Part shown: positions 11,118 to 50,016 of the stretch, piece after piece
Position numbering within the stretch: position 1 is the stretch's first letter
How the letters are laid out: every line of letters starts with the position of its first letter
Assembly (NCBI RefSeq): GCF_003795145.1
Contig: NZ_CP027786.1
Coordinates: forward strand, 1,488,001-1,552,000
DNA length: 64,000 nucleotides
Source of the DNA: Tetragenococcus koreensis
Lineage (GTDB): Bacteria > Bacillota > Bacilli > Lactobacillales > Enterococcaceae
Direction: 5' to 3'
Notes under the pieces: generated by a model
What the model saw: the letters and a program-made list of their open reading frames with translations, nothing else
Databases searched by the model: none
What the model was told of the DNA's origin: nothing
Program-made: the position numbers and the translations under genes

Positions 11118-11921
11118 TCAATCAGGTGATACGTCTTCTCCAAACCATTTTTCCGAAATCTCTGCAAATTCACCATTATCTTGTAGTTCTTGTAAACCAT
11201 CATTAATTTCTGCTAATAATTCATCATCATCTTGTCTAACACCCACCGCGAAATTTTCATCCTCATAAGGCGTTTCAACCAAATTAAAATCATCCATCTT
11301 TTCATTTTGGTTTAAATAGTATTCAGCATAGACTCTATCAATCAGAAGCCCATCGATTCGCCCGCTTTCTAAATCAATAAATGCCTCATTAAAACTGTCA
11401 TAAAGCGTGGCGTCCTCACCTTCTACAATATCTTTTAATGCTTCTGGTTCTTGATTGAATGAATTATAGCCAGAGGAGCCTTCTTGAGCGCCCAGTATTT
11501 TCCCATCCATCTGGTCGATTGAATCAATATTACTATCTTTGGAAGTAACTAATAACTGGCTATTGCTCATGTAAGGTTCTGAAAAAGCTACCTCTTCTTC
11601 CCGTTCAGGCGTTTGGCTGTAGCCATTCCAAATCATATCAATCGTTCCATTATTCAATTCTGTTTCTTTCATAGACCAATCAATTGGCTGAAATGCGACT
11701 TCGGTATCATTTAAAGCAAATACAGCTTCAGCTAACTCGATATCAAAACCGGTTAAATTCCCATCATCATCACGAAAACCCATAGGTACAAATGTATCAT
11801 CCAAACCGACAACAACATCTGCATCTTCATTATTTCCTGCTCGCTCGTTTTCTCCAGAAGAACAAGCGCCTAATACAAAGACACTCACCAAAACAAGGCC
11901 TAATCCTTTTAATTTTTTCAT
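11118..11921 (-). CDS. Amino-acid ABC transporter substrate-binding lipoprotein (probable histidine, HisX/Y/Z type)
   Basis: This 267-residue family 3 solute-binding protein is anchored through the lipobox LGAC (Cys20). Typical blocks are FVPMGFRDDDGNLTGFDIEL, a ligand-pocket segment WNGYSQTPEREEEVAFSEPY, and the C-terminal LQELQDNGEFAEISEKWFG. It is the last of three genes (permease, ATPase, binding protein) behind a T-box leader with a histidine specifier, so histidine is the best substrate guess. Histidine-responsive T-boxes ahead of such transporters are known in Firmicutes. The protein is strongly acidic. Confidence 0.88.
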   Translation of the reverse strand: MKKLKGLGLVLVSVFVLGACSSGENERAGNNEDADVVVGLDDTFVPMGFRDDDGNLTGFDIELAEAVFALNDTEVAFQPIDWSMKETELNNGTIDMIWNGYSQTPEREEEVAFSEPYMSNSQLLVTSKDSNIDSIDQMDGKILGAQEGSSGYNSFNQEPEALKDIVEGEDATLYDSFNEAFIDLESGRIDGLLIDRVYAEYYLNQNEKMDDFNLVETPYEDENFAVGVRQDDDELLAEINDGLQELQDNGEFAEISEKWFGEDVSPD

Positions 11922-11932
11922 CTCTCTTCCTC

Positions 11933-12568
11933 CTAGTTAATTTCTGAAACCTCTAACAAATTGTCTGCAATATTTTCAGCAAAAGTCATATCATGCGTAA
12001 CCACCAATTGAGTAACGCCTTGTTGCTTCAGTCCCAAAATGATTCGTTCAACGTGTTCACGTAAAGCAGGATCCAATGCACTCGTAGGTTCATCATAGGC
12101 TAATACTTTAGGATCCATTGCCATTGCTCTAGCAATCGCTACTCGTTGTTTTTGGCCGCCAGATAATTGATAAGGATATTGTTGCAACAACGATTCTATA
12201 CCTAATTGAGCGGCAATATCTTCTGCTTTTTTAGTATAGACTTCCTTTTCTTCTTGTAGCGCTAATCTGGGTGCTAACACAATATTTTCAAAAACATTTA
12301 AATGGGGAAATAATTCAAATTCTTGGAATACAACTCCTACCACTTGTTCTTGATTTTTTGAACTTACTGGATCAAACTTTTCTCCATCTAATAGGAAATC
12401 TCCACTGTCGATCGTTTCTAGCCCTGCCAAAGTTCGCAGCAAAGTCGTTTTTCCACCTCCAGAAGGTCCTACTATAGCTAAAATCGATCCGTCTGGAATT
12501 GTTAGATCTAACGAATTAATCACTTTTTTTGAACCAAAAGATTTACTGACATTTTTAAGTTCTAACAT
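11933..12568 (-). CDS. Polar amino-acid ABC transporter ATP-binding protein
   Basis: This 211-residue ATPase is the motor of the T-box-controlled amino-acid importer. Walker A is GPSGGGKTT, the signature is LSGGQKQRVAIARA, Walker B is VLAYDEPTSALD and the switch histidine lies in VTHDMTF. It is a little shorter than the usual 240 residues of GlnQ/HisP proteins, ending soon after the switch region. It lies 13 bases downstream of the permease gene and 11 bases upstream of the binding-protein gene, each with its own ribosome-binding site. Confidence 0.93.
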   Translation of the reverse strand: MLELKNVSKSFGSKKVINSLDLTIPDGSILAIVGPSGGGKTTLLRTLAGLETIDSGDFLLDGEKFDPVSSKNQEQVVGVVFQEFELFPHLNVFENIVLAPRLALQEEKEVYTKKAEDIAAQLGIESLLQQYPYQLSGGQKQRVAIARAMAMDPKVLAYDEPTSALDPALREHVERIILGLKQQGVTQLVVTHDMTFAENIADNLLEVSEIN

Positions 12569-12581
12569 AGAATTTTTCCTC

Positions 12582-13223
12582 CTAACGATAATAATTCATA
12601 CGTTTTTCTAACATACGAAGAATAAGAGTAAACACAGCTGTCATAAGTAGGTACAAAATCCCTACACCTAACAGAGGAACTAACGAGACGTCACGTTCCA
12701 TCGCCACTTTTCCGATGCGCATCACATCTTGTAGACCTAGAATATAAACTAACGAAGTATCTTTTACCAAATTAATAATTTCGTTTCCAACAGAAGGCAA
12801 AGTGATTTTTACAACTTGGGGAATAATAATTTTTCGTAACGTTTGCCCGTAAGTCAAGCGTAATACCCGAGCCGCTTCATACTGTCCATTAGGTATCGAT
12901 TGAATACCTCCACGAAAAATTTCTGCAAAGTATGCTGCATAGTTAAAGATAAAAGCAATTAATGCTGCTTCAAAACGATCGAATACAATTCCCATAATAG
13001 GTAGCCCATAAAAAACGAAGATTAGCTGGAGCAAAAGTGGAGTCCCGCGCATCAGCCAAACATAAACTTGAATGATTGACTTGAAAATTTTCGACCGACT
13101 ACATAATACGAATGCTAGAATAATACCAATAGGAACTGACCCAATGATAGTTAAACCAAATAAGCGAAAAGTTACTTCCATTCCTGTAAATAATTGCGGA
13201 AAAATAGAAATCAAATAACTCAT
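12582..13223 (-). CDS. Polar amino-acid ABC transporter permease
   Basis: This 213-residue membrane protein of the HisMQ family has about five membrane helices and the docking loop EAARVLRLTYGQTLRKIIIPQ (split here by its EAA motif) with the conserved Gly. The typical RGTPLLLQLIFVFYG segment follows the second helix. It is the first gene of the operon, with GGAGG six bases before the ATG and the double T-box leader directly upstream. It presumably forms a homodimeric channel since only one permease gene is present. Confidence 0.93.
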   Translation of the reverse strand: MSYLISIFPQLFTGMEVTFRLFGLTIIGSVPIGIILAFVLCSRSKIFKSIIQVYVWLMRGTPLLLQLIFVFYGLPIMGIVFDRFEAALIAFIFNYAAYFAEIFRGGIQSIPNGQYEAARVLRLTYGQTLRKIIIPQVVKITLPSVGNEIINLVKDTSLVYILGLQDVMRIGKVAMERDVSLVPLLGVGILYLLMTAVFTLILRMLEKRMNYYR

Positions 13224-13241
13224 ATAAATCCTCCTTTAAAA

Positions 13242-13272
13242 TAAAAATGTCCTCTGGTTTTACCCAGAGGAC
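13242..13272 (-). terminator. Second (distal) T-box terminator
   Basis: Stem GTCCTCTGG / CCAGAGGAC followed on the minus strand by ATTTTTAT, ending 18 bases before the permease start codon. Confidence 0.88.
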
Positions 13273-13343
13273 GCAAAATACGTGGTTCCACCTCAATTTA
13301 TCTTTCCCTTACAGAAAAGACCTCAGTTAGTTACTGATTGAAA

Positions 13344-13378
13344 AATAAAAAAGTCCTTTAGCCAAATGGCTAAAGGAC
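13344..13378 (-). terminator. First T-box terminator
   Basis: Stem GTCCTTTAGCC / GGCTAAAGGAC followed on the minus strand by TTTTTTATTTTT, directly after the first T-box sequence. Confidence 0.92.
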
Positions 13379-13617
13379 GTCAATTACGCGGTTCCACCTT
13401 TATTTATTCATTCTTCGCAGAATAAAACTCAATAAGTCATCAATCAATAACTTTGGCTATAACGGGCTACCCGGACTTTTCTACTTTTTCTTCAAAAAAT
13501 CGACTCCAAGATGTGTTTCACCATAATTTCATTGTCTCTTCTCACCTGCCAGAGACTCTCTTAAAACAAAACTAAAGTTACTCTTCTTTTCGATGTCGTT
13601 TATTTAAGTTGTTCCTC

Positions 13618-49812: not shown

Positions 49813-50016
49813 GGGAATTCTGTGATGTACGAGTTATCCATTTTTAGTATTGACCGAACATTTTTATTGATATATTGGGATCTGTTAGGTGCCAGCGTTA
49901 GCAGCACGCCTTTTCATTTGGTAGCTCGACACGTTGGCCATGGAACCCACCTGCTTAGACTTTGCGGGATCAATACTCCAGGACAATAAACGGCATCTAC
50001 GGATATTACCCTTTTT
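49813..50016 (+). ncRNA. ssrS: 6S RNA (SsrS), RNA polymerase regulator
   Basis: A 204-base RNA starts seven bases after a strong promoter. Its ends pair with a closing stem (GGGAATTCTGTGATG against CATCTACGGATATTACCC with single-base bulges) followed directly by TTTTT. Inside are a largely unpaired middle region and a long imperfect apical hairpin built from ATTGAT / ATCAAT, TCT / AGA, AGGTG / CACCT and GCCAGCG / CGTTGGC. This rod with a central bubble is the hallmark of 6S RNA, which mimics an open promoter and holds RNA polymerase. Position near rarA agrees. Similarity was judged by structure and context only. Confidence 0.8.

Follow-up and report, generated by a model that had tools for sequence, protein, structure and literature searches.

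The window analysed here, a stretch of 64,000 nt from Tetragenococcus koreensis, carries on its minus strand a leader of ~375 nt situated 5' of an operon for the permease, ATPase and substrate-binding protein of an amino-acid ABC transporter (Table 1). Tetragenococcus solitarius has an identical permease, and those of other Tetragenococcus share 91-96% identity with it. Because the specifier loop of stem I reads GAA-A-CAC-A, with the usual A after the codon, the specifier is CAC (His), at 13515-13513, a codon that suits the amino-acid ABC transporter encoded downstream. In the Lactobacillales, histidine T-boxes have been assigned to hisYZX transporters, and tandems have been mentioned in five Enterococcus species (PMC9413887). 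The window also contains a 6S RNA gene at 49814-50009 on the plus strand (RF00013, 64.1 bits).

Table 1. Leader elements and downstream genes, in window coordinates.
Feature	Position	Strand	Remarks
Stem I, sole tRNA-reading module	13502..13602	-	Rfam RF00230 alignment and sequence
Stem II region	13460..13501	-	F-box CCGTTA at 13465-13460; Rfam alignment and sequence
X, linker hairpin 5' strand and loop	13440..13453	-	AAGTTATTGATTGA; covariation with X' and X''
X', local 3' strand of linker hairpin	13434..13441	-	GATGACTT; places discriminator 1
Stem III, discriminator 1	13407..13426	-	Fold of segment
Antiterminator 1	13372..13401	-	Core GGTGGAACCGCG at 13398-13387
Terminator 1	13343..13378	-	11-bp hairpin 13378-13353 and U-tract
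X'', second 3' strand	13329..13341	-	TCAATCAGTAACT; would place discriminator 2
Stem III, discriminator 2	13300..13321	-	9 bp; purine flank CTGAG 5', AAA 3'
Antiterminator 2	13267..13294	-	Core GGTGGAACCACG at 13292-13281; lacks a stem I
Terminator 2	13240..13272	-	9-bp hairpin 13272-13249 and U-tract
Amino-acid ABC transporter permease	12582..13223	-	hisYZX-type operon, judged by T-box
Amino-acid ABC transporter ATPase	11933..12568	-	
Substrate-binding lipoprotein	11118..11921	-	SBP_bac_3

Anatomy of the leader

The original prediction described two T-box sequences in series, each followed by an intrinsic terminator, and both pairs are present, with T-box core 2 starting 106 nt after T-box core 1 on the minus strand. 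The first pair belongs to unit 1, one complete T-box (13602-13370, minus strand) that aligns with positions 1-219 of the Rfam model RF00230 at 122.9 bits, against a gathering score of 93. Unit 2 matches positions 161-216 of that model only (stem III and antiterminator), at 16.4 bits. The ~50 nt from terminator 1 to T-box 2, which had been judged too short for a tRNA-reading stem I, hold a 9-bp stem III and no stem I; Rfam detects no stem I with a specifier belonging to unit 2. A hidden second stem I in the window is ruled out by Rfam together with a motif search, and a full tandem T-box by the fact that Rfam finds a single complete T-box. Within the window's own genome, such compact spacing of two cores occurs at this locus alone. 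Outside the window, the same genome carries two complete T-boxes 43 nt apart (G000:C1:1562876-1563390, 102.7 and 110.8 bits).

A T-box discriminator is composed of stem III with its purine flanks and the antiterminator (PMC7583486). Unit 2 has these parts in the window, as do nearly all of the 102 related loci described below: stem III, a purine flank on its 5' side, AA on its 3' side, the UGGN bulge and helices A1 and A2. In the window, GAGG/CCTC and ACG/CGT pairs flank a UGGAACC bulge and, with compensatory changes across the 102 loci, they bear out the ability of the second T-box sequence to form an antiterminator. The proposal that only the switch had been duplicated thus stands in so far as stems I and II are missing, and falls short in that stem III has been kept: with a whole discriminator and neither stem I nor stem II, unit 2 amounts to a complete sensor that lacks a reader. 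The base that contacts the tRNA end gives no clue as to its partner. UGG is conserved and the variable T-box base is A in both units; tRNA-His has C73, so neither unit matches the discriminator base, and specificity of unit 2 by this route is uninformative. TBDB omits the discriminator-base match for histidine (PMC7778990).

In unit 1, a linker hairpin of 8 bp, formed by X (13453-13446) and X', separates the F-box from stem III. A second 3' strand, X'', is complementary over 13 bp to X and its loop (13452-13440), and pairs with X in a register equal to that of the hairpin's own X' strand. In 90 of the 102 loci, T-box 2 is 32-39 nt away from the 3' end of X'', and the distance between X' and T-box 1 is mostly 34-38 nt, so that each strand stands in a like register to its own T-box. 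The remaining 12 loci are out of register (L063, L107, L125, L219, L233 and L244 among them), which counts against a hand-off between the two discriminators; the linker may have been lost, shifted or misread there.

Conservation and wider occurrence

The leader was present in 103 of 105 Enterococcaceae genomes searched, and nearly all loci read have a second core 5' of the transporter. We gathered 102 loci with a stem-I-less unit 2, from 24 genera in three Lactobacillales families (67 in the window's own family, 34 in family f9, probably Lactobacillaceae, and 1 in family f8); these are loci collected rather than a survey, and some relatives carry a single T-box. The arrangement, which had been regarded as unusual, is instead widespread. 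Unit 2 is missing from four Enterococcaceae loci (L093, L094, L098, L101).

GGTGG is intact in unit 2 of all 102 loci, a count that owes something to selection since loci were found by a core with ≤2 mismatches, and the base helix of the antiterminator is kept through compensatory changes (AAGG/CCTT, GAGG/CCTC, GGGG/CCCC, TCGG/CCGA). Both features argue that unit 2 is no product of chance. Terminator 2 matches terminator 1 in stability, with medians of -19.8 and -18.2 kcal/mol across the 102 loci. The variable base of UGGN and the ACC are somewhat relaxed in unit 2, which counts against a hand-off. In four loci (L109, L111, L122, L124) insertions of 150-400 nt separate the units, bringing the spacing to 256-259 nt in L109 and L111 and to 394-530 nt in L122 and L124; the inserts contain no stem I, and X'' still adjoins unit 2 and is complementary to X.

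A further 27 relatives, mostly of Enterococcaceae genus g14, carry a complete second T-box that includes a stem I. Among those scanned, nearly all scored 89-112 bits with Rfam, which decided these cases as the motif search alone missed their stem I, and the second specifier is again CAC in most. One second T-box, at L133, reaches only 67 bits and has no clear CAC specifier; its stem I is possibly decaying. In the permease tree the full tandems form one clade, with L133 as a long-branched outlier, beside two stem-I-less clades. Unit 2 may have originated by partial duplication, or a full tandem may have shed a stem I; the arrangement of one reader with two discriminators is old.

Beyond the Lactobacillales, a sample of 398 genomes from across the phylum included 30 with the same core spacing (nearly all non-Lactobacillales), against a single match in the backward control. 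Loci L359-L389, from other classes and mostly from Clostridia, have two T-box cores 80-110 nt apart before other amino-acid pathway genes; in the loci read these genes, judged by their first codons, resemble DAHP synthase, trpD, solute-binding proteins and Ser-pyruvate aminotransferase. Many of them carry a linker GGTATCGGA...TCCCGTACC and, ahead of unit 2, a third strand TCCCGTACCT that again extends into the loop; a locus's own linker pairs are favoured (z -6.7 over 17 representatives). The Clostridial tandems are the same design in a different sequence.

Pairing of X with X' and X''

The sequences of X and X'' vary among groups, yet remain complementary inside each locus, as in L061 (AAGTTATTGATTGA/TTGATCAATAACTT), L092 (GCGGTCGTTGC/GCAACGACTGT), L121 (GAGTCAAGTAGACT/AGTTTACTTGACTC) and L220 (GGAGTTTAGTGATAAA/TTTATCACTAAACTCC). 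Over 76 representatives, the best-helix score was 20.8 for X and X'' of the same locus and 13.2 for pairs drawn across species (z 20.7), and none of 20000 permutations scored as high. With one locus per genus and permutation within family, z was still ~10, and none of the permutations in 20 draws reached the observed value. Measured against dinucleotide shuffles, X:X'' fell below 0.05 in 62 of the 102 stem-I-less loci and in 0/27 of the full tandems, in which each switch has its own reader and its own hairpin.

When the two sides were aligned separately, so that pairing could not steer the alignment, the X:X'' antidiagonal came top at 28.3; the next best reached 10.9, and 25 row permutations gave at most 6.8. 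Column 15 pairs with X'' in 83% of cases, using all four Watson-Crick types, and with X' in 45%, from which it follows that X'' is not merely a copy of X'. A dot plot at fixed register has its highest peak where X:X'' is expected, blurred by offsets of 1-2 nt. Per-site tests on independent pairs in the permease tree mostly point in the same direction, without significance given the few independent pairs.

Folding the leader and comparing orthologous leaders, the checks put forward with the original prediction, both came out in its favour: the whole leader folds better than 100 of 100 shuffles (z -4.4), and unit 2 is conserved in the 102 loci. For the isolated segment from the F-box to T-box 2, the state with X:X'' is predicted to be favoured over that with X'' unpaired by a median of 8.3 kcal/mol, and is favourable in 62 of 64 in-register representatives. 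For the window's full-length leader folded in the absence of tRNA, the calculation puts X:X' and X:X'' almost level, at energies that differ only as -102.1 does from -103.2 kcal/mol, which counts against a hand-off, and the probability of X:X'' ranges from 0.1 to 0.45 with the length folded. Such near-equality, as modelled, fits a bistable element and is no proof of exchange.

In several genera, pairing between the spacer and the 5' flank of unit 1 stem III gives a second helix, Y:Y'', of up to 11 bp (L084, L088, L089, L129, L130, L132 and others; in L130, CTTACGAAG/CTTCGTAAG). It was considered as a universal second helix and rejected, being confined to some genera and weak in the window.

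A probable coupled double switch and its alternatives

We consider it probable that the leader is a histidine-specific T-box in which one tRNA reader (stems I and II) serves two serial discriminators, with an exchangeable linker helix coupling them. Uncharged tRNA-His bound to stem I would first stabilise antiterminator 1. X'', made only in transcripts that have passed terminator 1, would then pair with X and oust X', setting discriminator 2 where discriminator 1 had stood relative to stems I and II. The tRNA, still gripped by its anticodon and elbow, would be tested again at antiterminator 2, and the operon would be transcribed only when both tests are passed; the effect would be to lower leak multiplicatively and to add a delay for proofreading. 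The comparisons establish the anatomy, its wide conservation, and that X and X'' are complementary and covary; that strands are exchanged and the tRNA handed on in living cells, that a single tRNA molecule serves both tests, and that the cell gains by it, we infer. Two options had been offered for the second switch, the same tRNA end or another tRNA without codon reading. The former is the best supported; the latter is unlikely, since X:X'', a covarying helix, anchors unit 2 to stems I and II of unit 1. A double gate, also suggested, is among the best-supported readings given that same helix.

The gate could be simpler, with unit 2 sampling the free end of the same tRNA by proximity and X'' a leftover copy of X', without any exchange of helices. 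The 89-95% identity of X' and X'' in three core columns is what a duplicate would give; however, such a copy does not account for column 15, which pairs with X'' and not X', nor for the frequent complementarity of X'' to the loop, and pairing of X with X'' has been kept in 24 genera despite changed sequence, leaving this reading rather unlikely. More doubtful again is a housekeeping role, in which X:X'' closes off the used unit 1 (for tRNA release, RNA stability or the prevention of interference) and terminator 2 is a plain attenuator or answers to the acceptor end of another tRNA. Y:Y'' would suit such a role as, by covering the flank of unit 1 stem III (z 9.8 over 70 loci), it would dismantle discriminator 1, but the constant register of X'' to discriminator 2, together with the conservation in unit 2 of UGG and of the sequences flanking stem III, points to tRNA contact in the usual geometry. 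That unit 2 is the decaying relic of a full second T-box, its regulation lost, is very improbable: full tandems in related genera, the low score at L133 and the four loci without unit 2 would agree with decay, but unit 2 of the 102 loci retains GGTGG, both antiterminator helices, the flanks of stem III and its terminator, and covariation links X'' to X.

The coupled reading takes much from known systems. Unit 1 has the stem I, F-box, stem III, antiterminator, terminator, CAC specifier and downstream transporter of a transcriptional T-box riboswitch (RF00230); the window's leader differs in adding a discriminator and terminator without stems I and II, and in a linker helix with two alternative 3' strands. 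Vitreschak et al. reportedly described, in 2008, T-boxes with duplicated terminator-antiterminator elements. The window's leader, in which a single specifier domain precedes two antiterminator/terminator pairs, agrees with that class as reported and probably belongs to it; its architecture is therefore probably known. An exchangeable, covarying linker helix in equal register to both discriminators had no description in the literature searched, of which the 2008 text was not part, and as far as that literature shows the coupling helix appears to be new. Full tandem T-boxes (those of trp, ilv and thrS, for example, and in genus g14 those of the his transporter, the last homologous to the window's his leader) likewise place two switches in series and would act as an AND gate; they differ in having a stem I and a linker hairpin for each switch and, in the 27 examined, no X:X''. 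Tandem riboswitches with adjacent aptamers, such as those for glycine, also use repeated parts to sharpen a response, but they join two sensors to one expression platform, whereas the window has one tRNA reader and two sensing and expression platforms. One reader with two expression platforms is not among the arrangements classed in a survey of contiguous riboswitches (PMC12452182).

A 2020 review counts partially tandem T-boxes among those with an unknown mode of action (PMC7583486). The exchangeable linker helix offers a concrete, testable mechanism for them, in many lactic acid bacteria and some Clostridia, and the stem-I-less unit 2 is a natural construct with which to test a discriminator apart from stem I. 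We would give even chances that one decoding module with two sensing modules constitutes a general Bacillota class, in which strand exchange re-docks the decoded tRNA to make a kinetic-proofreading riboswitch. For the cell, coupled switches would provide a built-in double check before the operon is turned on.
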